From Streptomyces roseochromogenus subsp. oscitans DS 12.976 (lineage in GTDB: Bacteria; Actinomycetota; Actinomycetes; Streptomycetales; Streptomycetaceae), in the NCBI RefSeq assembly GCF_000497445.1, contig NZ_CM002285.1, forward strand, positions 648,619 through 712,618: a DNA stretch of 64,000 nucleotides, read 5' to 3'. Positions 1-63,527 of the stretch are shown one piece after another. Positions within the stretch are counted from its first letter, which is position 1. Each line of letters starts with the position of its first letter. The notes under the pieces were generated by a model. The model saw only the letters and a program-made list of their open reading frames with translations, ran no database searches and was not told the origin of the DNA. A program made the translations under genes and the position numbers.

Positions 1-377
1 ACGCGCTGACCGCCGCCCTGCTGAAGTCGGCCAGCGGCACGTTCGCCGACCACGGCTTCACCGCGTTCCTCCGGTCCTGGCAGACGTACGGCTTCGCGCT
101 GACCGGCATCGCCGCGGTGGTGCTGCTGGAGAACGCGCTCCAGGCCGGTCCACTGGCCGCGGCCCAGCCGGCGCTGACCATCGGCGACGCGGTGGTGAGT
201 CTGACGCTCGGGATGACGCTGTTCGAGGAGCGGATCCGCACCGGCTGGTGGCTCGTACCGGAGGCCTGCAGTGCGCTGCTGATCGTCGTGGGTGTGGTGG
301 TGCTCAGCCGGGCCGTCCAGCACATCACCGTGGCATCGGCCCGGGCTGCCAGGGCGACAGAGGGTTCTTCCGGGTGA
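1..377 (+). CDS. DMT-family (EamA-like) transporter, C-terminal part
   Basis: The reading frame is open from the first bases of the window (codons begin at base 3) and ends at TGA 375-377, so only about 124 C-terminal residues are visible. Three hydrophobic helices can be seen: one around FALTGIAAVVLLENAL, one around ALTIGDAVVSLTLGMTLF, and a last one around SALLIVVGVVVLSRAV. The charged loop EERIRTGWW between the last two is typical of the tenth-helix region of drug/metabolite transporters. The family exports small metabolites across the cytoplasmic membrane; the substrate cannot be read from this fragment. The gene is 5'-truncated only by the window edge. The next gene is a broken regulator on the same strand. 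Confidence 0.75.
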   Translation, partial: ALTAALLKSASGTFADHGFTAFLRSWQTYGFALTGIAAVVLLENALQAGPLAAAQPALTIGDAVVSLTLGMTLFEERIRTGWWLVPEACSALLIVVGVVVLSRAVQHITVASARAARATEGSSG

Positions 378-378
378 T

Positions 379-1249
379 CGGCAGTGTGCCGGTCGGGTCC
401 GGCCGCGGGTGGCGGCCGCCGGACTGGAGAGGGGCTGGCTTGCGGAGCTGATCCCGCCGACGGGCTTCTTTCCGTACTTTCTCAACCCCGCCCCTGCCGG
501 GGCCGGCCCCGGCGCTCGACACGGAGCTGGCCGCCATCCAGGACACCCCCGTCGACCGGATCGGCCGCGACGTCGATCATCTGGAATACCACCAGGGACA
601 CCTCGGCCCCCGGCTGCGGTCGCTGCTCCACGACCCGGACACCCGTCTGGCCCGCGCCACCCAGGAGATCCACACCTACTGGGAGCCGGCGCTCGCCCCC
701 TACTGGGCACGCATCCCCGCGGTACTGGACACGGACGTCTTCCACCGGGCCCGCCAGGTCGCCGAGCACGGTGCGGGCCACGTTCTCAACGACCTGCACA
801 CCGCGGTGAGATGGGACGGCAGCACGCTGCACCTGACCCGCCGGAGTCGGCCCCTGTCCCGCACCACAGCGGGCCCGGGGCTCCTGCTGGTCCCCTCGGC
901 CTTCACCGGGCCGCGGCTGCCCACCCGAGTCGCACCACCCGAACCACCACAACTCGTCTGTCCAGCGCGCGGTACGGGCTCGCTCTGGACTCCCGAGCCC
1001 CCTGCCGACGCCGACGCCTTGGCCGCGGTACTCGGCCGCTCACGGACCCGCCTGCTGATCGAACTGGACACCCCGGCCTCCACCACCCAGCTGGCACACC
1101 GCACCGGACTGTCCCCGGCCGGGGTATCCCAGTACCTGACCACACTACGTGGCGCGGGCCTGGTCGGCGCCCACCGGGCCTGCCGCTCCGTCCTCTACGC
1201 CCGTACCGCCGCCGCTGAAACCCTCCTCGAAGCCGCCTTCACCACCTGA
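379..1249 (+). pseudogene. Decayed ArsR-like (DUF5937-type) winged-helix regulator
   Basis: An ArsR-type winged helix sits at the C-terminus (about 960-1240: LGRSRTRLLIELDTPASTT, then TGLSPAGVSQYLTTLRGAG and LVGAHRACRSVLYAR), preceded by the helical N-terminal region usual for Streptomyces regulators of this type. The coding signal changes frame. Residues LAELIPPTGFFPYFLNPAPAG are in frame 1 (about 440-500), while the continuation ALDTELAAIQDTPVDRIG and all the rest is in frame 2. No frame joins the two, and frame 2 has a TGA at 449-451. The usual N-terminal 40-60 residues (normally a start followed by a DLARV-like helix) are also absent, because the recognisable part begins directly after the transporter stop. 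I call it an N-truncated, frameshifted remnant. It may once have controlled the transporter or the peptide/P450 locus; that is inference. Confidence 0.65.
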
Positions 1250-1255
1250 GGCCCG

Positions 1256-1293
1256 GTCAACCCCCGAAGGACTTCCGGAGCCGACCGGTTGAC
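1256..1293. terminator. Possible bidirectional hairpin between convergent genes
   Basis: GTCAACC at 1256-1262 pairs with GGTTGAC at 1287-1293. The loop contains a second partly complementary pair (CCGAAGG/CTTCCGG). It lies between the ends of the regulator remnant and the P450 gene. The stem is only 7 bp, so confidence is low. Confidence 0.35.
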
Positions 1294-1315
1294 ATCCCCC
1301 GAGAGGGCCCTGCCG

Positions 1316-2362
1316 TCAGCGCGGGTGCGTCAGCCGTACGTCCGCCACGCCGAGCAGGCCGAGGAGCGGGACCTTGCCGGTCCTCTGACGGGGATCGACC
1401 ACGAGTCCGGAGCCGCGGACCAGGTCCAGCAGCAGTTCGGCAAGCGGCATCACCATGTGTCTGCCCCAGCAGCGTTCGGAGGAGTGGCCGAAGGGGAGGT
1501 AGCCCGGAGTCGTCTCGGGGTCGAGGTCGTCCCAGCGCTCGGGGCGGAAGGTGTCCGGGTCGTCCCACAGGGCAGGGTCGCGGTGGGACAGCAGTGGCAG
1601 CACCAGGACGTCGTCCCGCTCGCCGATCCGGTCGTCGACGGCCGGGTACTCGGGCGAGGCGTTGCGCAGGATGTTCCACGAGGGCGGCAGCAGCCGCAGG
1701 GACTCGAGGATGATGCCGCGGTTGGGTGTGGCGTCGTCGAAGGGCGCACCGAGCCAGAGCGCGTTGGCCACCAGGGTCGAGACGGTGAAGCACACGGGGG
1801 CGGCGGCCCTGCGGTACATGCCCATGGCGTACCGGCGCTCCTGGTAGCCGGTGGCCCGCGCGGCACGGCCCGCGAGACCGGTGAGCCGGCTGCTCGGCCG
1901 CGGCCAGCCGGGCAGCGCGGCGCCGATCGCGATCACCGACCAGGTGAGCTTCGGGGTGAGTTCGAGATTACGGCTCATCAGCATGCGCAGCCGGTAGGGG
2001 TCCTGGCCGAGGATGAGGTCACGCAGGAAGAGGTGCCCGGTCAGCGGCCAGGAGCCGGCGAGGTCCGCGTCCTCGGGCAGCGGTCCGGACAGTGCCTCGC
2101 GCACGTCGTTGCCCAGGGTGCGGGTGACGGTGGATGCCTCGGTGCGTGTGATGGAACGCCCGTGCAGTGGCTTGAAGGTGGGGCGCTCGGTCTCCGTCGC
2201 CCGGCGTGCGGCGAGGATGCGATCGGCGACCTCGTGTCCCGCGACACCGACCGTGTCAGGTTCCAGCCGGAAGACGTCCTGTCCTGTGTGGGCGCCGATG
2301 AGCGCGGCGAGCCGCGGGGCGAACACGGTGGTGCGCGCACGCGTGGCGGAAGACGGCGGCAT
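1316..2362 (-). CDS. Cytochrome P450, probable atropopeptide-type maturase
   Basis: A haem-thiolate monooxygenase of 348 residues, compact for a bacterial P450 (usually about 400). Landmarks: K-helix ExxR as ESLR (residues 220-223), the PERW meander (FRPERWDD), and a haem loop FGHSSERCWG with the presumed proximal ligand Cys298. The loop departs from the FxxGxxxCxG consensus: the usual fourth-position Gly is Ser and the usual His/Arg is Glu. The I-helix region (around VCFTVSTLVANALW) also lacks the usual AGxxT signature. The start at 2362 is chosen because GGGAG lies 7-8 bases upstream; the frame is open further upstream but encodes only Pro/Arg-rich sequence. It lies 146 bp downstream of a same-strand 26-residue peptide gene ending AWYLWY. 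In the tryptorubin pathway a single P450 installs the aryl crosslinks on such a peptide, so I infer the same role here. The P450 family call is firm; the substrate is inferred. Confidence 0.88.
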   Translation of the reverse strand: MPPSSATRARTTVFAPRLAALIGAHTGQDVFRLEPDTVGVAGHEVADRILAARRATETERPTFKPLHGRSITRTEASTVTRTLGNDVREALSGPLPEDADLAGSWPLTGHLFLRDLILGQDPYRLRMLMSRNLELTPKLTWSVIAIGAALPGWPRPSSRLTGLAGRAARATGYQERRYAMGMYRRAAAPVCFTVSTLVANALWLGAPFDDATPNRGIILESLRLLPPSWNILRNASPEYPAVDDRIGERDDVLVLPLLSHRDPALWDDPDTFRPERWDDLDPETTPGYLPFGHSSERCWGRHMVMPLAELLLDLVRGSGLVVDPRQRTGKVPLLGLLGVADVRLTHPR

Positions 2363-2508
2363 GGATGCTCCCGGTGGTGAACGGGCGGCCGGGGAAGGGC
2401 GCGAGAGGACCGGAGGCCGCGGAACGGCGTACCACCGCTGTCCGGCCGGGCCGTGACCACGCACGGCCGGACAACGATGTCACCTCACCTGCGCGGCGAG
2501 GCGTGGGA

Positions 2509-2589
2509 TCAGTACCAGAGGTACCAGGCGTTCGCCTTGAGGCTCTTGGCGGCCGCGACCTTGTTGCGGATGGCGAAGAGAAGCTTCAT
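2509..2589 (-). CDS. Atropopeptide (tryptorubin-like) RiPP precursor, 26 aa
   Basis: A 26-codon gene with ATG at 2589 and a strong ribosome site AGGAGGTG (complement of 2595-2602), 5 bases upstream. The product begins MKLLFAIRNKVAAAK and ends SLKAN then AWYLWY, with the stop directly after the last Tyr. Positions 1-20 form a basic, helix-prone leader; 21-26 are the presumed core. Tryptorubin A, founder of the atropopeptides, is a ribosomal hexapeptide Ala-Trp-Tyr-Ile-Trp-Tyr crosslinked by one P450. The core here differs at one position (Leu for Ile), and a P450 follows on the same strand. A longer in-frame extension up to 2691 exists, but it has no comparable ribosome site and would put the SD inside the gene. 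No peptidase or transporter is adjacent, as in other minimal atropopeptide loci. That the gene is translated and modified is inference. Confidence 0.87.
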   Translation of the reverse strand: MKLLFAIRNKVAAAKSLKANAWYLWY

Positions 2590-2594
2590 CAGTG

Positions 2595-2602
2595 CACCTC
2601 CT
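2595..2602 (-). promoter_or_regulatory. Strong ribosome binding site of the peptide gene
   Basis: On the minus strand this reads AGGAGGTG, near-perfectly complementary to the 16S 3' end and 5 bases before the ATG at 2589. It fixes the start of the 26-residue peptide and is the main evidence that so short a gene is real. Confidence 0.8.
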
Positions 2603-2889
2603 GGAGAGGGTGAACGGGCGACACACGACGACACCGGAGCCACTAGTGAAGATCGTGTGTCGATGACTCCGGGAAACTTCCCTCGCCCCACCGACGAATA
2701 ATCGCCAGAGGGATCAAAACCGTTCCGGCATAGTCACTTTCAGACTTTCTCCGCTCACCGGTGCTCCGCTTTGACCACACATCCCGCCGAGCATGCCGTG
2801 ATGCACCGCCCGGAGATTGGCCGGATAGGCATGCCGCCGAGCAAGGAACGACGCAACGCCCCCGGTAACCTCCGCTTCCTACCGTCTTC
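2603..2889. other. Intergenic region upstream of the peptide gene
   Basis: About 290 bases between the TetR gene end and the peptide gene. It must hold the peptide/P450 promoter. It is less GC-rich than its surroundings around 2690-2750, and GGGAA-ac-TTCCC at 2671-2682 is a short palindrome. No convincing -35/-10 pair could be fixed by eye. Confidence 0.4.
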
Positions 2890-3525
2890 CTACCGTCCCG
2901 CGATCCCGTCGATCCAGGACTGGAGGCGTTCGCCCTGGACGGCCATCAGGCCGGGGTCACGCAAGGTGTTGGTGAGGACGGACATGCCCTGGTAGGCGGC
3001 GACGAGCTCGACGGCGAGGGCGGCGGCGTCGGCGCGGCCCAGCTGGGTGAACTGGGCCTCCACCCAGGCGAGCAGGGCCCGCATGACCTGCGCGGCGGCC
3101 TGGTCCAGGCCGTCGTCCCTCTTGTCCAGCTCGGTGGCGAGGGTACCGAAGGGACAGCCGTAGCGGGCCGCGGTCTCGCGCTGGTCGACCCAGCCGGCGA
3201 CGAGTGCCTTCAGCCGGGCCGCCGGATCCGGGAGTGCGTCCAACTGAGCAGTCAGCGCTTCGAGTTGCTCGCGGTGGGCGTCCACCGTGGCGTCGACGAG
3301 CTGGTCCTTGGTCTTGAAGTAGTAGTAGACGTTGCCGAGCGGCACCTCTGCCGCGCGGGCGATGTCGCCGAGGGTGGTCTTCTCCACGCCCTGCTCATGG
3401 AAGACCCGTACGGCCGCCTTCACCAGGCGCTCGCGCTTGCCGCCCCGGCTGCCACCCTGGCCGGATCGACCGGATCGGCTCGGCCGCGCGACCTCGGCCG
3501 TCGGCGCGGAATTTGAGTCAGTCAC
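2890..3525 (-). CDS. TetR/AcrR-family transcriptional repressor
   Basis: A 211-residue regulator. The N-terminal HTH runs from about residue 30 (KRERLVKAAVRVFHEQG) through TTLGDIARAAEVPLGNVYYYF, the TetR signature. The C-terminal ligand domain carries CPFGTLATEL, typical of the LmrA/YxaF-like branch. The GTG at 3525 is preferred because the protein then begins VTDSNSAP; a TTG at 3543 in the same frame is an alternative, and neither has a clear ribosome site. It is divergent from the NmrA-family oxidoreductase at 3612, with two palindromes between them or over the start, which suggests it represses itself and that gene. The ligand is unknown. Confidence 0.85.
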   Translation of the reverse strand: MTDSNSAPTAEVARPSRSGRSGQGGSRGGKRERLVKAAVRVFHEQGVEKTTLGDIARAAEVPLGNVYYYFKTKDQLVDATVDAHREQLEALTAQLDALPDPAARLKALVAGWVDQRETAARYGCPFGTLATELDKRDDGLDQAAAQVMRALLAWVEAQFTQLGRADAAALAVELVAAYQGMSVLTNTLRDPGLMAVQGERLQSWIDGIAGR

Positions 3526-3533
3526 CTGACTGA
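3518..3533. promoter_or_regulatory. Palindrome over the TetR start (candidate operator)
   Basis: TCAGTC-accT-GACTGA type inverted repeat, with perfect 6-bp arms and a 4-bp centre, overlapping the first codons or leader of the tetR gene. Probably an autoregulatory site; inferred from position and symmetry. Confidence 0.5.
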
Positions 3534-3574
3534 GGATAGACAACGGTCGCCATCACGGACTAGCGTCTCGACTT

Positions 3575-3590
3575 AGTTAGTCAACTAACT
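3575..3590. promoter_or_regulatory. Palindromic TetR operator before the NmrA gene
   Basis: AGTTAGT-ca-ACTAACT is a 7-bp perfect inverted repeat 21 bases before the oxidoreductase ATG, in an AT-rich patch of otherwise GC-rich DNA. Size and symmetry suit a TetR dimer site controlling the divergent pair. Confidence 0.65.
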
Positions 3591-3611
3591 CAGATAGCCA
3601 GGAGAGTTGCC

Positions 3612-4433
3612 ATGATCGTTGTCACGGGTGCCACAGGGAACGTCGGACGGGCTCTGGTCGCCGAGTTGAGCGAGGGTGGGGATACGGTGACGGCCCTCGC
3701 CCGGCACATCGGGACGGAGGACGTTCCGCCTGGTGTGCGCGCCGTTGCGGCCGATCTCGGGCAGCCGCAGAGCCTCGCTCCCGCACTGTCGGGCGCCAAG
3801 GCGCTGTTTCTGCTGGTGGCCGGCGAGGATCCGGCCGGCATTCTGCGCCAGGCCGCCGCGGCCGGGGTCGCCAAGGTGGTGTTGCTGTCCTCGCTGGGGG
3901 CGGGCACCCGGCCTGAGACGTACACGCACGCGACGCGCTTCGAGGCGGCCATGGCCCCATCGGGGCTGCCCTTCACCGTCCTGCGCTCGGGCGGGCTGGC
4001 CTCCAACGCGCTGGCCTGGGCGGAGCCGATCCGCCGGTACCGCACCGCGGCGGCACCCTTCGCCGATGTGGCACTGCCGTTTGTCGATCCGGACGATGTC
4101 GCCGCGGTGGCGGCGGCCGTGCTGCGCGGAGACGGACACGACGGCGCCCTCTACACACTGACCGGCCCGGAGCCCACCACCCCCCGGCAGCGGGCCGCCG
4201 CCATCGCGGCCGTGCTCGGCGAGCCGGTGACATTCGTCGAGCAGAGCCGCGAGGAGGCCCACGCCCAGATGATCCGGTTCATGCCGGCCGCCGTCGCCGA
4301 AGGCACGCTCGCCGTCCTCGGCGCACCCACACCGGAGGAGCAAGCGGTCGGCACGGACGTGGAGCGTCTGCTCGGCCGCCCCGCGGCCCCCTTCTCCGCG
4401 TGGGCGGCACGGCACGTGGCGGCGTTCCGCTGA
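3612..4433 (+). CDS. NmrA-like NAD(P)-binding oxidoreductase
   Basis: A 273-residue atypical short-chain dehydrogenase-like protein. The N-terminus MIVVTGATGNVGRALVAEL is the GxxGxxG Rossmann motif. A second strand-turn is at KVVLLSSLGAG, and there is no YxxxK pair, as expected for the NmrA/HSCARG-like class. The C-terminal part (DPDDVAAVAAAVLRGDG, then YTLTGPEP) matches NAD(P)H-binding proteins of this type. The ribosome site AGGAGAG precedes the ATG by 6 bases. It is transcribed divergently from the TetR gene, with a palindrome between them, so it is probably induced by that repressor's ligand. Likely a redox sensor or quinone/aldehyde reductase; the substrate is not readable. Confidence 0.85.
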   Translation: MIVVTGATGNVGRALVAELSEGGDTVTALARHIGTEDVPPGVRAVAADLGQPQSLAPALSGAKALFLLVAGEDPAGILRQAAAAGVAKVVLLSSLGAGTRPETYTHATRFEAAMAPSGLPFTVLRSGGLASNALAWAEPIRRYRTAAAPFADVALPFVDPDDVAAVAAAVLRGDGHDGALYTLTGPEPTTPRQRAAAIAAVLGEPVTFVEQSREEAHAQMIRFMPAAVAEGTLAVLGAPTPEEQAVGTDVERLLGRPAAPFSAWAARHVAAFR

Positions 4434-41876: not shown

Positions 41877-43871
41877 GTGAAGGCGAGGAAGCTCAAGAAG
41901 ACGAAGACACAGACGAAGGTCATCGCAGTGAGCGGTGCGCTCCTGATGATCGGCGTGGTCGGTACGGCCACCGCGTTCGGTACCGGCACGGGGGAGCCCC
42001 GGCGCATCGAAGCGCACGGAACGCAGCTCTCGGTACCGGTCGACGGGGGCCGCGCCATGGTGGACCTCACCTCCCTGGTGGTGCGGGCCCGAGCGGACGA
42101 CGGCCGTACATGGCAGCTCTCGGCGCCGGCCGCCGGTGATCTGGGCGCGCCGGGGAAGGTCACCATCCGTGATGGGAAGGCCAGTTGGGCGTACGGCGAC
42201 GGGGGGCTGAACGTCACCGCGTCCGCGCAGGAAGGGCGCCTGGCCGTCACCGTGCGCTCGGCCCGGCAGTCCAGCCTGACCTGGCCGGTCTCCGGCACGG
42301 ACGGAACGACCGAGGAGCTGCAAGTCCCGCGCGGTGAAGGCTTGTCCATTCCGGTCGCCGACCGGTGGTGGAACTCCGCTTCGGCGGGCCTGGCGGGCAC
42401 CGGGTCCGATATGGCCGAGGGCCTGACCATGCCGTTCTGGGGCACCAGTCAGTCCGGACGGCACGGGGCGAGCTACATCGTCGAGTCCGACATCGGCACG
42501 ACCCTCAAGTTCGTCTCCGCCGACGGGCGCCTGCACACGGAGGCCGAGCACGAGTTCGCGCCGCAGCAGGCCACGGGGAACTACACCGTGACGTTCGCGC
42601 TCACGGACGGATCGCCCGTCGCCGCGGCACGCGACTACCGCGCTTGGCTGCAGGGTCACGGTGGCATCACCACGCTGCGGCAGAAGATCGCCCGCAATCC
42701 CGAAGTCGCCAAACTGGTGGGCGCCTTCCACGCCTACACATGGGGCCAGGCTCGTAGCGCCGAGGGCGTCCGCCGCCTGCGGGGGCTGGGGATCGACCGG
42801 ATGTGGCTGGGATACGACGCCGACGGCAACCCCATGGACGGTAAGACGACCCGCCTCGCCCGGCAGGCCGGTTATCTCATCGGGCCCTACGACTCCTGGG
42901 CCAACGCGCAGGATCCGGCGTCGGCCGACACTCCTGTCTCCGCCTGGCCCGCCCCGGTGTGGCAGGACGCCTGTGTGCGCCGGGCGGACGGCACGATCGT
43001 CACCGGTTTCCGCGGCCGCGGCTGTTACGTGAGCTCCGAGGCGCTCCGGCGCGCCGAGCCGTCCCGGCACTATCTGGCCGACCGCACCAGGCAGATGACC
43101 GCCAACGGCGCCACGAGCTACTTCCTGGACGTCGACGCCGCCGGTGAACTGTTCACCGATCACTCTCCGGCGCATCCGATGACCAAGGCTCAGGACCGGC
43201 GCAACCGGCTCGCGCGGATGGCCTGGCTGTCCGGCGACCGTCACCTGGTGCTCGGTTCGGAGAGCGCGGGCTCGTGGGCGAACGGCGTTCTGTCCTTCAG
43301 CCATGGCTCGGGCACACCGGTCGACGACCGGCTGTGGAAGCTGGAGAAGGACCGCCGGACATGGGGCGGTTACCAGCCCGCCAACGCACCGGCGGTCTAC
43401 TTCAAGCCCGTCCGTCTCCCGGCCGACCTCGCCAAGACGATGTACGACCCGCGATACCGGGTGCCGCTCTATCAGACGGTCCTGCACGACTCGGTGATCA
43501 GCACCGAACGCTGGGAGCTGCCCTGGTCGAAGCTGCCGGACCAGAGCCGCACCCGCGCCCTTCTCGCGATGCTGTACAACGTGCCCCTCAACCTGGTCCT
43601 CGACCAGGACGAACTGGACCGGCACGGCAAGCAGCTCGCCCAGGTGCAGCGATACTTCGAGCCACTGCACAAGGTGGCGGCCACGCAGCCGATGACCGAC
43701 TTCCACTGGTTGACGGACGACCATCTCGTGCAGCGGACCACGTTCGGCCGGGGTGTGCTGACCGTGACGGCCAACTTCTCCGCCACCTCCCACGACGGAC
43801 TGCCCGCCGGGTGTGTCGACGCGGTGATCAAGGGCGGTGCCAGGCACCGGCTGTGCCCCACCGGGCTGTGA
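41877..43871 (+). CDS. Secreted glycoside-hydrolase-like protein (GH101/DUF5696-related)
   Basis: 664 residues from GTG 41877. A basic N-terminus and one hydrophobic helix (VIAVSGALLMIGVVGTATAF) indicate export or an anchor. The N-terminal half is beta-rich (TWQLSAPAAGDLGAPGKVTI, MPFWGTSQSGRHGASYIVES), like the leading sandwich of large glycosidases. A barrel-like part follows: GIDRMWLGYDADGNPMDGKT, AGYLIGPYDSWAN, ATSYFLDVDAAGELF (candidate catalytic Asp) and HLVLGSESAGSWANGVLSF. This layout resembles GH101/GH129 and DUF5696 proteins; the exact family and substrate are uncertain. No carbohydrate-binding module is visible. Confidence 0.65.
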   Translation: MKARKLKKTKTQTKVIAVSGALLMIGVVGTATAFGTGTGEPRRIEAHGTQLSVPVDGGRAMVDLTSLVVRARADDGRTWQLSAPAAGDLGAPGKVTIRDGKASWAYGDGGLNVTASAQEGRLAVTVRSARQSSLTWPVSGTDGTTEELQVPRGEGLSIPVADRWWNSASAGLAGTGSDMAEGLTMPFWGTSQSGRHGASYIVESDIGTTLKFVSADGRLHTEAEHEFAPQQATGNYTVTFALTDGSPVAAARDYRAWLQGHGGITTLRQKIARNPEVAKLVGAFHAYTWGQARSAEGVRRLRGLGIDRMWLGYDADGNPMDGKTTRLARQAGYLIGPYDSWANAQDPASADTPVSAWPAPVWQDACVRRADGTIVTGFRGRGCYVSSEALRRAEPSRHYLADRTRQMTANGATSYFLDVDAAGELFTDHSPAHPMTKAQDRRNRLARMAWLSGDRHLVLGSESAGSWANGVLSFSHGSGTPVDDRLWKLEKDRRTWGGYQPANAPAVYFKPVRLPADLAKTMYDPRYRVPLYQTVLHDSVISTERWELPWSKLPDQSRTRALLAMLYNVPLNLVLDQDELDRHGKQLAQVQRYFEPLHKVAATQPMTDFHWLTDDHLVQRTTFGRGVLTVTANFSATSHDGLPAGCVDAVIKGGARHRLCPTGL

Positions 43872-51624: not shown

Positions 51625-51669
51625 TTGACAGCAGGGGCCAATGGGTCCAGCTTTCGGGACAACGTTGTC
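51625..51669 (+). promoter_or_regulatory. Promoter with LacI-type palindromic operator
   Basis: TTGACA at 51625-51630 is a consensus -35 box with a weak -10 (CAGCTT, 51648). Just downstream, GACAACGTTGTC at 51658-51669 is a perfect 12-bp palindrome with the central CG of LacI-family operators. Placement over the transcription start suggests repression of the GH92 gene. Confidence 0.65.
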
Positions 51670-51697
51670 TAAAGGACATCGAAGGGACCTGGTCACG

Positions 51698-54601
51698 ATG
51701 GTGCCGTTCCGACTTCTGTCCGTGCTGGCCGCGGGCGCCCTGGCTGTGGGCGCCGCCTCCGTTCCCGTCCACGCCGTTCCCGTCTCACCGGCGCCGGTCT
51801 CCGATCCGGCCTCTCTCGTCGATCCGTTCATCGGGACCTCGAACGCCGCCGACGACTTCCCCGGGGCCGACACCCCGTTCGGGATGGTCCAGTGGAGTCC
51901 CGACACCAGCCCCCACCGGCCGGACGGCGGCGGCTACGAGTACAAGGACTCGGCCCTCACCGGTTTCGGCCTGACGCACATCGCCGGACCGGGCTGCCGG
52001 GCCGCCGGCGACATCCCGGTGCTGCCGACCGTCGGCGCCGTCGACTCGGCCGCGACGGACAGCTTCTCGCACGCCAACGAGTCGGCCACGCCCGGCTCGT
52101 ACACCGTCTCCCTGGACAACGGCGTCAAGACGGAGCTGACCGCCACCACCCGCAGCGGCATGGCGCGCTTCACCTTCCCGTCCACCAGCCGGGCGAACCT
52201 CCTCTTCAAGCTGACGGCCAGCGCGAACGGCGACACGGCCGCCGAGTTCGGCGTGGTGAACGACAGAGAGCTCAGAGGCAAGGTCACCAGCGGCAACTTC
52301 TGTGGCGAGGGCAACTCCTACACCGTCTACTACGACATGGTGTTCGACCAGCCGTTCCGCCACAGCGGTACCGCGGTGGCCGCCGCAACGCCCTCCACGC
52401 CCAGGACCCACGCCTCCCCCAACGCCCCCGAGGCACCGAACAAGCCGGTGCTGCACGGTGACGTGCCCGGTACGCCGAACACCTTCGCTCCCCGGGCGAG
52501 CGGCTCCGACGGCTATGTCACCTTCGACACCACCACCCATCGGGCCGTGCAGGCCAAGGTCGGCATCTCCTATGTCTCGGCCGCCGACGCCGTGGGCAAC
52601 CGGCAGGCGGAGAACCCCGGTTGGAATCTGGCCAAGGTGCGCGGCGCGGCGCACGACGCCTGGAAGTCCCTCCTCGGACGGGTGCGGATCACCGGCGGGA
52701 CGCCCGACCGGCAGACCGTCTTCTACACCGCGCTCTACCACGCGCTGCTGCATCCCAACGTGATCAGTGACACCAACGGCCGCTATCCGGGGTTCGACGG
52801 CAAGACCCACACCGTCGACAAGGGCCATGGCGCCGCCTACGCCAACTACTCGGGCTGGGACGTCTACCGCTCGCAGGCCCAGCTCGAAGGCCTCGTGGCC
52901 CCGAAGATCGCCTCCGACACCGCGCAGTCGATGGTCGACGACTACCGCCAGACCGGACTGTTCCCGAAGTGGTCGGAGAACAACGGCGAGACCTATGTCA
53001 TGGTGGGCGATCCGGCCGACGAGATCATCGCCGACTACCACGCCTTCGGGGCCCGGAACTTCGACACCGCGACCGCCCTCAAGGGCATGATCGCGGAAGC
53101 CACCGTCCCCAACAACAACCGGCCGGGGCTCACCTACCTGGAGCAGCTGGGCTGGCTGCCCAGCAACGGCAAGTACGGCTGCTGCAACTTCTACGGCCCG
53201 GCCTCCACGACGCTCGAGTACAACTCGGCGGACTTCGCGATCTCCGCCTTCGCCGGCGCCCTCGGCCACGCCGCCGATCAGCACCGGTTCGCGGACCGGG
53301 CACAGGACTGGCAGAACCTCTTCCACCACGACAGCGGATTCATCCGGCCGCGCGACACCTCCGGCACGTGGACGGGCGGGTTCTCCCCCACCTCGGGCAA
53401 GAACTTCGTCGAGGGCGACTCCTGGCAGTACACGCCGATGGTGCCGTTCAACCTGCACGGGCTGGCCACCGCCATGGGCGGCGACGCGGCCATGGCCAAG
53501 TACCTGGACACGGACCTGTCCTCGCTGACCGGCGCCGGCGGCTACACCAATCTGGGGAACGAGCCCAGCCTCAACATTCCCTGGGAGTACGACTACATCG
53601 GCCGCCCGTACGAGACGCAGAAGGTCGTCCGGCAGGTCCAGGACCAGATCTGGACCGACAGCCCCTCCGGGCTGGCCGGCAACGACGACCTGGGCGAGAT
53701 GAGCTCGTGGTACGTGTGGTCCGCCCTCGGCATGTATCCCGAGACCCCCGGCACCGCCGATCTGGCGCTGGGCAGCCCGCTCTTCCCCCAGGCGGTGATC
53801 ACGCTGCCGTCCGGCCGCACCCTCACGATCAACGGCACGGGCGCCGCGGACGACGCTCCGTACGTCCAGTCGGCCACCTGGAACGGCGCCGCATGGAACG
53901 CGGCCCGCGCTCCCGGGGGTGCCCTGACCGGCGGTGGCACCCTGACCTACGTCCTCGGCGCCACGCCGAACACGTCCTGGGCGTCGGCACCTTCCGCCGC
54001 CCCGCCCTCCTACCCGGGCGCGCCCGCCTACAGCGACGTCGGCACGTCCGGCGACACCGCCGCGGCCACGGCCGACTTCGACGGCGCCGGCTTCAGTTAC
54101 TCCACGCACGCCCTGGCCACCGCGGGGGTCACTCCTGGCGCCAAGGTCACCGTGGGCGGGGTGACGTTCACCTGGCCGGACGTGGCGCCCGGAGCGCGGG
54201 ACAACTACGAGGCGAACGGGCAGACGGTACCGGCCTCCGGCTCCGGCAGCATCTCCTTCCTGGGTGCCGCCAACAACGGCCCGGTCTCCGGCACCGCCAC
54301 CGTCACCTACACGGACGGCACGACCCAGTCGGTCCCGCTGGGTCTGTCCGACTGGACGCTGAGCGCGGGCGCCGCCTCACCGCGCGCCGACAACACCATC
54401 GCGCTCACCATGCCGTACCGCAATCACGCGGGCACCGCGTCCGACAGCACCACGACATATGTGTTCGCCACGACGCCCGTGGCGCTGAGTCCGGGCAAGA
54501 CGGTCAGCAGCGTGCGTCTGCCGTCCGACGTCGCGTCCGGGGGCCTGCATGTCTTCGCGATCGGCTTCGGCGGCGCGGCCTCGGCGCCGGGGCGCAGCTG
54601 A
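51698..54601 (+). CDS. Secreted GH92 alpha-mannosidase
   Basis: 967 residues from ATG 51698. Signal peptide LLSVLAAGALAVGAASVPVH. The GH92 sandwich and barrel motifs are clear: VDPFIGTSNAADDFPGADTP, FGMVQWSPDTSPHRPDGGGY, GFGLTHIAGPGC, NYSGWDVYRSQAQLEGLVAP, GWLPSNGKYGC, EGDSWQYTPMVPFNLHGLAT, GNEPSLNIPWEYDYIGRPYE, GNDDLGEMSSWYVWSALGMY. The C-terminal 250 residues are beta-rich (TPGAKVTVGGVTFTWPDVAP, YTDGTTQSVPLGLSDW), like an NPCBM-type carbohydrate module. GH92 enzymes are calcium-dependent exo-alpha-mannosidases acting on yeast or glycoprotein mannans. Control is probably by the LacI-type operator upstream; its regulator is not in the window. Confidence 0.93.
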   Translation: MVPFRLLSVLAAGALAVGAASVPVHAVPVSPAPVSDPASLVDPFIGTSNAADDFPGADTPFGMVQWSPDTSPHRPDGGGYEYKDSALTGFGLTHIAGPGCRAAGDIPVLPTVGAVDSAATDSFSHANESATPGSYTVSLDNGVKTELTATTRSGMARFTFPSTSRANLLFKLTASANGDTAAEFGVVNDRELRGKVTSGNFCGEGNSYTVYYDMVFDQPFRHSGTAVAAATPSTPRTHASPNAPEAPNKPVLHGDVPGTPNTFAPRASGSDGYVTFDTTTHRAVQAKVGISYVSAADAVGNRQAENPGWNLAKVRGAAHDAWKSLLGRVRITGGTPDRQTVFYTALYHALLHPNVISDTNGRYPGFDGKTHTVDKGHGAAYANYSGWDVYRSQAQLEGLVAPKIASDTAQSMVDDYRQTGLFPKWSENNGETYVMVGDPADEIIADYHAFGARNFDTATALKGMIAEATVPNNNRPGLTYLEQLGWLPSNGKYGCCNFYGPASTTLEYNSADFAISAFAGALGHAADQHRFADRAQDWQNLFHHDSGFIRPRDTSGTWTGGFSPTSGKNFVEGDSWQYTPMVPFNLHGLATAMGGDAAMAKYLDTDLSSLTGAGGYTNLGNEPSLNIPWEYDYIGRPYETQKVVRQVQDQIWTDSPSGLAGNDDLGEMSSWYVWSALGMYPETPGTADLALGSPLFPQAVITLPSGRTLTINGTGAADDAPYVQSATWNGAAWNAARAPGGALTGGGTLTYVLGATPNTSWASAPSAAPPSYPGAPAYSDVGTSGDTAAATADFDGAGFSYSTHALATAGVTPGAKVTVGGVTFTWPDVAPGARDNYEANGQTVPASGSGSISFLGAANNGPVSGTATVTYTDGTTQSVPLGLSDWTLSAGAASPRADNTIALTMPYRNHAGTASDSTTTYVFATTPVALSPGKTVSSVRLPSDVASGGLHVFAIGFGGAASAPGRS

Positions 54602-61598: not shown

Positions 61599-63527
61599 AT
61601 GCCGATCGCACCTGCCGCCCTGCGCCTGGCCGTCGCAGTCGCGGGCTTCCTGCTCGTCACCACCACGTCCACCACGTCCTCCGCCGCCCCGAAGGAGCCA
61701 ACACACCGTGTTTCGGGCGCAGTTGAAGCCGCAGCCCCGGCCACCTGGTCCCCGCCGCTGTCCACGCAAGGCCGCTCCATCGTCGACAGCCAGGGCAACC
61801 GTTTCCGCCTGAAGGGCGCCAACTGGGACGGCGCACAAGGCTCGTGGACGGGCAGCGGCAGCGCCGATGATCCCGCCAACCACCACGCCGGCCAGGACTC
61901 CCACGGCATCCCCCTCGGCCTGGACCGCGTACCGCTGGACCAACTCCTCGGCGATTTCCATCAGCTGGGCATCAACACCATCCGGCTGCCGTTCTCGAAC
62001 GCGATGATCCACAGCACGACCCCGGTGCCCGACAGCGCCGTGACCGCCAATCCCCAACTGCGAGGCAGGACACCGCTGGAGATCTACGACGCCGTGGTCG
62101 ACGCGCTCAGCGCCGGCGGGTTCGCCGTGATCCTCAACAACCACACCAACACCTCCCGCTGGTGCTGCGGCATCGACGGCAACGAGCGCTGGAACAGCTC
62201 GCAGTCGACGCGGGCCTGGGCCGACGACTGGGTCTTCATGGCCCGCCGCTACGCCTCCGTCCCCCGGGTGGTCGGCGCGGACCTGTACAACGAGGTGCGG
62301 CGCGACGTCCTGGACGACCCCAACTGGGGCCTGGGCGACGACCACGACTGGTACGCCGCGGCCCGGCTCACCGCCGACCGCATCCTCACGGAGGCCAACC
62401 CACGGCTCCTCATCGTCGTCGAGGGCATCAACTGGACGGGGATACCCGCGGACGGACTCCCCCACGGCCGCCCTGTGCTGACCCCCGCCGGGACCCTGTC
62501 CCACACCCTCGTCGACGCCCACAAGCTGGTCTACTCCGCGCACTTCTACGGCTACACCGGCCCCCACCACAGCGGCGCGACCGGTATCGGCGAGACCCAT
62601 GACCCCCGCTACCAGGACCTGAGCCGCAACGACCTGTACACAGCGCTCCACGACGAGGCGTTCTTCGTGGAGGAGCCGGAGCGGCACTACACCGCACCCG
62701 TCTGGGTCAGCGAGTTCGGCATCGGCGCGGGCGAGACGAGTCCGGCCGCCCGCACCTGGTTCGGCAGCATCACCGACTACTTCGCCGACCACGACACCGA
62801 CTTCGCCTTCTGGCCTCTGGTCGGCTTCACGGGCCACGACGACTGGGCGCTGCTCCAGTACGACGAGAGCGGGCACCGCTCCGGCATCCTCGACGCGGGC
62901 GACTGGCGTGCTGCGGCCTGGCAGCACCTCATGACCGCGCCGAGCGACACCGGTCCGGTGGCGGCGGTTCCGGTCTGGCGGATGCTCTCCATCGACCATG
63001 GCGACGCGGTGGAGTCGGTACGGGTGCGGGCCACCGGGGACTGGGATCCGGGGGCCTACAAGGCCGCCTGCCCCGACGGGCTGCGGCTCATCGGGCTCGG
63101 CCACACCACTGGGCGGGGCCTGTGCACCGACAGCACCGGCGGTGGCCCGGGCGATCTGCGTGCGACGGGCGGCGGCCAGACGGTGGTCACGGACGAGCGC
63201 TATGTCCCGGCCGGCGGCGACTGGGCGTCGGGATACACCAAACTGCAGTGCCCCGAGGGCGGTTTCCTCATCGGATACAGCGCCCGTGGCGAGCGGGTGT
63301 CGGCGGCCCTGTGCGTGCCCGCCCGGAACTCGCTGGCGGGAGCGGGCCGCACGGTGTGGTTCGACCGGTCCGACAACCGTCCCAGCGGCGCCGCCGGCGG
63401 CGACTTCGCGTACGGCGACTACAAGGGCCAGTGCGGCGAGGACGAATACGCCGCCGGAATCGCCTACACCACCCGGGTGGGCAGCCGCCCCGGGCCCGAC
63501 GCCCTACTGTGCCGCCGGCTCCTCTGA
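61599..63527 (+). CDS. Secreted GH5-family glycosidase with three C-terminal Cys repeats
   Basis: 642 residues from ATG 61599. Signal peptide LRLAVAVAGFLLVTTTST. The GH5 barrel (about 55-445): FRLKGANWDGAQG, LGINTIRLPFSNAMI, acid/base Glu in ADLYNEVRRDVLDD, nucleophile Glu in PVWVSEFGIGAG, FAFWPLVGF. The last 190 residues form three related units of about 55-60 residues, each with a GD(W/F) start, Y.K/A..C and a final LC (CPDGLRLIGLGHTTGRGLC; CPEGGFLIGYSARGERVSAA; CGEDEYAAGIAYTTR). These look like a small beta module with one disulfide per unit, perhaps for binding. Endoglucanase-like activity is likely; the substrate is not proven. The end overlaps the convergent TetR gene by 24 bp. Confidence 0.88.
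   Translation: MPIAPAALRLAVAVAGFLLVTTTSTTSSAAPKEPTHRVSGAVEAAAPATWSPPLSTQGRSIVDSQGNRFRLKGANWDGAQGSWTGSGSADDPANHHAGQDSHGIPLGLDRVPLDQLLGDFHQLGINTIRLPFSNAMIHSTTPVPDSAVTANPQLRGRTPLEIYDAVVDALSAGGFAVILNNHTNTSRWCCGIDGNERWNSSQSTRAWADDWVFMARRYASVPRVVGADLYNEVRRDVLDDPNWGLGDDHDWYAAARLTADRILTEANPRLLIVVEGINWTGIPADGLPHGRPVLTPAGTLSHTLVDAHKLVYSAHFYGYTGPHHSGATGIGETHDPRYQDLSRNDLYTALHDEAFFVEEPERHYTAPVWVSEFGIGAGETSPAARTWFGSITDYFADHDTDFAFWPLVGFTGHDDWALLQYDESGHRSGILDAGDWRAAAWQHLMTAPSDTGPVAAVPVWRMLSIDHGDAVESVRVRATGDWDPGAYKAACPDGLRLIGLGHTTGRGLCTDSTGGGPGDLRATGGGQTVVTDERYVPAGGDWASGYTKLQCPEGGFLIGYSARGERVSAALCVPARNSLAGAGRTVWFDRSDNRPSGAAGGDFAYGDYKGQCGEDEYAAGIAYTTRVGSRPGPDALLCRRLL

Follow-up and report, generated by a model that had tools for sequence, protein, structure and literature searches.

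A two-gene atropopeptide-type operon with an AWYLWY core and an intergenic hairpin in Streptomyces roseochromogenus

Described atropopeptides and the two-gene locus

Atropopeptides have been defined by a KSLK-type leader motif together with a Trp at position 2 of the core, and more than 650 clusters have been predicted for them (PMC11450843). Heterologous expression of the Streptomyces jumonjinensis (jum) cluster led to amyxirubin B, and lauA with lauB1 of Streptomyces laurentii to tryptorubin B/laurentirubin B (PMC11450843). The tryptorubin A/B clusters (trp and lau) combine a KSLK leader, a WYxWY core and one family-defining P450; all three are found in the locus analysed here, except that Leu replaces Ile at core position 4. 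Amyxirubin B comes from the same two-gene layout, and bitryptides (xWxxWx, e.g. cihunamides) have the same core pattern and KSLK leader. Biarylitides are likewise small P450-crosslinked RiPPs (crosslinking being a prediction in our case), but the biarylitide precursor has five residues (PMC13417212), whereas ours has 26 and includes a leader; membership in that class was rejected.

The DNA analysed is a 64-kb stretch of the S. roseochromogenus subsp. oscitans DS 12.976 genome (the window). The features of the locus, in order of transcription, are:

2596..2602, minus strand: ribosome-binding site AGGAGGT of the precursor gene, 6 nt 5' of the ATG (read from the sequence)
2509..2589, minus strand: atropopeptide (tryptorubin-family) precursor gene, 26 aa, MKLLFAIRNKVAAAKSLKANAWYLWY, stop TGA (NF038372 match)
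2536..2547, minus strand: KSLK leader motif, residues 15-18 (read from the sequence; motif of the family definition, PMC11450843)
2512..2529, minus strand: core peptide AWYLWY, xWxxWx pattern, directly 5' of the stop (read from the sequence)
2431..2481, minus strand: hairpin between the precursor and P450 genes (compensatory changes in 13 aligned sequences; enriched relative to controls)
2368..2372, minus strand: GGGAG, likely ribosome site of the P450 gene (read from the sequence)
1316..2362, minus strand: atropopeptide-type cytochrome P450 gene, 348 aa, Cys298 in FGHSSERCWG (Pfam p450, homologues and alignment)

The original prediction had described a 26-codon gene with a near-perfect ribosome site and AWYLWY directly before the stop, followed on the same strand by a single P450 gene, and had assigned the pair to the tryptorubin-like atropopeptides. 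Both genes are present on the minus strand as described, the start of the P450 gene being the one point corrected, and the assignment is borne out by the precursor and by the P450. At 52.1 bits, the precursor (26 codons plus TGA, 2589..2509, from the sequence and the ORF reading) exceeds the curated cut-off of 33 set for NCBIfam NF038372, the model of tryptorubin family RiPP precursors, and is the only match to this model in its own 9.78-Mb genome (E = 8.9e-12); none was found in 14 control genomes. A purine-rich site of similar kind stands 5' of the precursor in 17 aligned relatives. KSLK, which occupies residues 17-20 in the precursor set of PMC11450843, is found here at residues 15-18, and the core has Trp at position 2 (xWxxxx) and again at position 5. 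Further 5', within 2590-2790 of the minus strand, relatives of the window clade (here the window with L025, L028, L029, L031, L045, L056, L057 and L077) have conserved stretches in common, GGGAAG and a GTGATTA-like block among them.

The P450 gene follows after a gap of 146 nt (2508..2363). A start at GTG 2464, as in the mechanical ORF (382 aa), was rejected as lying too far 5': the best homologues, mostly 348-353 aa in length, span 91% of the 382-aa frame; of five that were aligned, four (P0001, P0006, P0057 and P0071) begin at the Met encoded at 2362, and GGGAG stands before this Met. The gene was therefore assigned to 2362..1316. The longer ORF matches Pfam p450 (7.9e-13); the protein contains the heme-ligand motif FGHSSERCWG (Cys298) and ExxR in the form ESLR, and FGx5-6CxG is found in all 59 P450s compared, including that of the window. 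With dN/dS values of 0.15-0.26 against seven relatives, the gene is evidently under purifying selection. The homologues from S. jumonjinensis, S. laurentii and S. clavuligerus are 78, 79 and 78% identical to it, respectively, P0057 and P0080 being linked to published clusters through organism name and identity and not through the locus. The homology to atropopeptide P450s that was to be expected is thus found, at 78-79%, in the two strains (S. jumonjinensis and S. laurentii) whose clusters have reported products (PMC11450843). The lau cluster has a second P450, which is 28% identical to the tryptorubin P450 (PMC11450843); since our match is at 79%, the S. laurentii protein should be the family P450. 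A genome search with the window P450 gave no second match within the 64-kb window.

A search of solved structures returned, among the best 60 of 158 matches, general P450s only, over part of the chain (best 9ulw_A, 2.4e-12). Rfam gave two sub-threshold matches only, both inside the P450 gene and taken as chance. More distant P450s (~40% identity), possibly of another RiPP P450 type, occur in two genomes of the genus sample (G166:C1:1114886-1115893 and G241:C6:598274-599284).

Six neighbouring window proteins were searched in the fetched loci and none is constantly linked to the P450, which supports, without proving, a minimal two-gene type. The TetR and NmrA-like genes upstream (2890-4433) were rejected as cluster members, since only L051/L090 and L078/L092 have them close to the P450. 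A membrane-protein-like gene (partial, window 3-377), convergent with the P450 gene, has matches near the P450 in L055-L057, L077, L078, L086, L091-L093 and L095 and none in the closest relative, L051/L090; no transporter is claimed, since its full homologue in L091 matches no Pfam family. Elsewhere in the window, Pfam identifies glycoside hydrolases GH129, GH92 and GH5 (41877-43871, 51641-54601 and 61599-63527), perhaps genes for glycan use. By its gene content the locus is an ordinary, minimal two-gene atropopeptide operon and a member of a known family.

Distribution of the family and of the AWYLWY core

In a sample of 295 Streptomyces genomes, 29 have a precursor over the cut-off (30 at E ≤ 0.001) and 31 have the P450 at E ≤ 1e-60. 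All 30 precursor-match genomes are among the 31 P450 genomes, so that the precursor homologues beside P450s in related genomes that the original prediction had proposed to look for were found. The precursor is matched in 2 of 396 genomes of a phylum sample, both of the same genus as the window, in 10 of 35 genomes of the genus of Xanthomonas maliensis and in 6 of 249 genomes of the family of a Pseudonocardiaceae bacterium (over the cut-off in the last two, starting genome counted).

The cores of 30 distinct loci from the Streptomyces sample, which was not selected by core and includes the window's locus, are AWYLWY (10), AWYIWY (8), AWYHWY (5), AWYGWI (4), AWYFWY (2) and AWYIWF (1). A genome scan that did select for the core (xWY[L/F]WY after Leu-Lys) found 52 stretches. 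A parsed precursor with a P450 is present in 37 of these (20 AWYLWY, 15 AWYFWY and 2 VWYLWY), a precursor without P450 match in 1, a P450 without parsed precursor in 2 and neither gene in 12, which are probably chance. The two sets overlap; L051 and L090, for example, are one place. The 20 AWYLWY loci are from Streptomyces (14), Streptacidiphilus, Xanthomonas maliensis, Burkholderia multivorans, two Luteibacter and a Pseudonocardiaceae bacterium. The weight that had been put on the Ile-to-Leu change as a possible sign of a new product is therefore not sustained: AWYLWY is a common natural core, and the commonest in the Streptomyces sample.

Four of these operons with an identical AWYLWY lie in Pseudomonadota (L053 of B. 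multivorans, L061 and L070 of Luteibacter and L043 of X. maliensis), and their P450s cluster together on the P450 tree. On an S. clavuligerus plasmid (L089, ~2808-2888) a precursor with the core AWYIWW, which differs from AWYLWY at positions 4 and 6, stands just 5' of the P450; no ATG was parsed at its expected start, and it is missing from the gene table of the plasmid collection, a table known to be incomplete. Amyxirubin B is also named clavorubin. Clavorubin comes from S. clavuligerus.

On the P450 tree (59 rows, partly chosen by the WY[L/F]WY pattern and hence biased) the AWYLWY label, carried by 24 rows, needs 7 changes, at least 5 of which are forced by well-supported branches. The position-4 codons of 63 loci are CTC (26) and CTG (2) for Leu, ATC (10) for Ile, TTC (16) for Phe, CAC (5) for His and GGC (4) for Gly; the Leu codons of the window P450 are CTG (26), CTC (21) and CTT (1). 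Because the position-4 codons are mostly CTC, ATC or TTC, a single change of the first base is in most cases enough to pass between Ile, Leu and Phe. This spacing fits repeated core switching, the loci being related and no statistic therefore given. An origin of the tryptorubin A core on several occasions has been suggested (PMC11450843).

Predicted product

By analogy with characterised relatives, the KSLK leader would dock the precursor on the P450, which would oxidatively crosslink Trp2, Tyr3 and Trp5 of AWYLWY through C-C and C-N bonds with formation of a pyrroloindoline. The hexapeptide would then be freed by a host protease encoded elsewhere, as has been proposed for the family (PMC11450843), and a peptidase may trim Ala1. 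Different bridges have been found on one core (PMC11450843), so the sequence does not reveal which crosslinks are formed. The computed [M+H]+ values are 901.424 for linear AWYLWY, 897.393 for the hexapeptide less 4H and 826.356 for the pentapeptide less 4H; those less 6H (895.3773 and 824.3402) agree with the ions reported for laurentirubin (895.3760 and 824.3401; PMC11450843). The predicted product would be isobaric with tryptorubin A. As Leu and Ile have the same mass, a mass test cannot separate it from tryptorubin A or B, and an AWYLWY strain judged by mass only could pass for a tryptorubin A producer. The string AWYLWY was not found in the papers covered by a text search, which says little, since the tryptorubin A core string AWYIWY was equally absent.

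Could the operon be of the atropopeptide type and its product nevertheless a simpler monocyclic peptide with one Trp-Trp link, like scabrirubin or the cihunamides? Monocyclic products do arise from WxxW cores, namely scabrirubin, varsorubin B2a and the product of ScaB with LauA (PMC11450843, PMC12352619). However, the closest P450s with reported products, those of S. jumonjinensis and S. laurentii (78-79%), belong to the clusters of amyxirubin B, which is named among the products of complex shape, and of tryptorubin B, which carries three modifications (PMC11450843), the LauA core being WYIWY (PMC12352619). We regard a monocyclic product as unlikely and retain the tryptorubin-type polycycle as the predicted one.

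The hairpin between the precursor and P450 genes

The 146-nt intergenic stretch folds better than its shuffles (z = −2.37; 5 of the 200 fold at least equally well), due largely to a long stem at 2481-2431; the best 46-nt hairpin of the window has z = −3.45 or −2.75, depending on the shuffle draw. A best 46-nt hairpin with z ≤ −3 is present in 46 of 60 distinct precursor-P450 intergenic stretches. One S. clavuligerus plasmid supplied a first control, in which 3 of 36 intergenic stretches between same-strand genes, taken from three 50-kb regions, reach this threshold; in a second control, the DNA upstream of the precursors, 5 of 60 do. The 60 precursor-P450 stretches are related, so that p-values overstate their independence. 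Among the Streptomyces loci not chosen by core, 20 of 29 are at z ≤ −3 (upstream control 1/29) and 25 of 29 pass a looser combined z test with two window sizes, the upstream control having been counted for z ≤ −3 only; four (L010, L014, L018 and L026) fail both thresholds. The hairpin passes in all six loci of the Pseudonocardiaceae family (control 0/6). The signal is weak in Xanthomonas, with 3 of 11 at z ≤ −3 (control 1/11) and 4 of 11 by the looser test; here L140 and L141 were parsed to a wrong ORF, which makes their intergenic stretch too long. One duplicate, L019, was dropped from the loci compared. A cruder test of stem length is passed by 38 of the 60 loci, the window not among them.

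A hairpin stands at the corresponding place in most of L007-L036 and in L137 and L148-L152, and it persists while the stem sequences differ between clades. The stem starts at a median of 25 nt after the precursor stop and ends at a median of 30 nt (quartiles 22-43) before the P450 start, and should therefore spare the ribosome site of the P450 gene in most loci. In 13 window-clade sequences the stem is 97.1% paired, whereas slid versions reach at most 59.1%. Changes on both sides affect 4 pairs (8 cells); 8 cells were reached in none of 500 shuffles and 4 pairs in 8 of 500. This alignment comprises 13 of the 17 picked window-clade rows, L014, L026, L035 and L081 having been omitted for unalignable loops or arms. 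The window clade has 26 G-U cells on the sense strand versus 2 A-C, an excess pointing to an RNA element. A word search confined to the main texts of PMC11450843 and PMC12352619 found no mention of such a hairpin or terminator.

The hairpin is the part of the locus that adds something beyond the known family. We infer that it would keep the precursor message more abundant than the P450 message, either by partial termination or by shielding the precursor mRNA at its 3' end. A scan of 1200-3000 revealed no U-tract terminator; Streptomyces is known to have terminators that lack a U trail (PMC8355165). Stem-loops after the first gene of Clostridia operons for ABC importers set transcript ratios (PMC9045158) and, like ours, immediately follow a 5' gene of whose product an excess is required, but they belong to other organisms and other proteins, and the window hairpin has no U-tract. 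The yield of varsorubin rose ~100-fold when a ribosome site was added before the P450 gene (PMC11450843), a gain that fits the proposed precursor excess, though no hairpin was altered in that experiment. Taken together, an xWxxWx (bitryptide) two-gene operon with KSLK docking, P450 crosslinks, an outside protease and a precursor-favouring hairpin is, in our judgement, very probably the correct reading of the locus.

The same bases could instead form a DNA operator, the 5' arm GACATCGTTGTC being an imperfect palindrome. Palindromes of this kind resemble the operators of LacI-type repressors. When up to 2 mismatches are allowed, the two strands of the genome contain 66 matches to GACATCGTTGTCCGG and 22 to a reversed control, and across the family as a whole the sense strand folds only marginally better than the antisense strand (35 versus 23 of 60, P = 0.04). 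An operator is nonetheless improbable in view of arm sequences that change from clade to clade under a hairpin that stays, and of the window-clade excess of G-U over A-C described above; an RNA element is the preferred reading. That precursor and P450 are relics whose expression has been lost, as might be supposed from a scan of 1200-3000 (conserved stretches 5' of the precursor included) that found no sigma-70-type promoter, is hardly credible given the intact frames, the strong ribosome site, the purifying selection on the P450 and the upstream stretches conserved in window-clade relatives.

The locus is thus one more operon for a family with more than 650 predicted clusters, with AWYLWY as a common and repeatedly switched natural core. 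We tentatively propose, with somewhat more doubt than confidence, that atropopeptide operons generally carry, between precursor and P450, a fast-diverging, structure-conserved RNA hairpin that sets how much substrate is made per enzyme and hence the number and kind of crosslinks. The conserved hairpin may also be a reason why native atropopeptide yields can be low. If the general proposal were true, the hairpin would count among the defining parts of the family, as yet undescribed, and could be used to tune both titre and bridging pattern.
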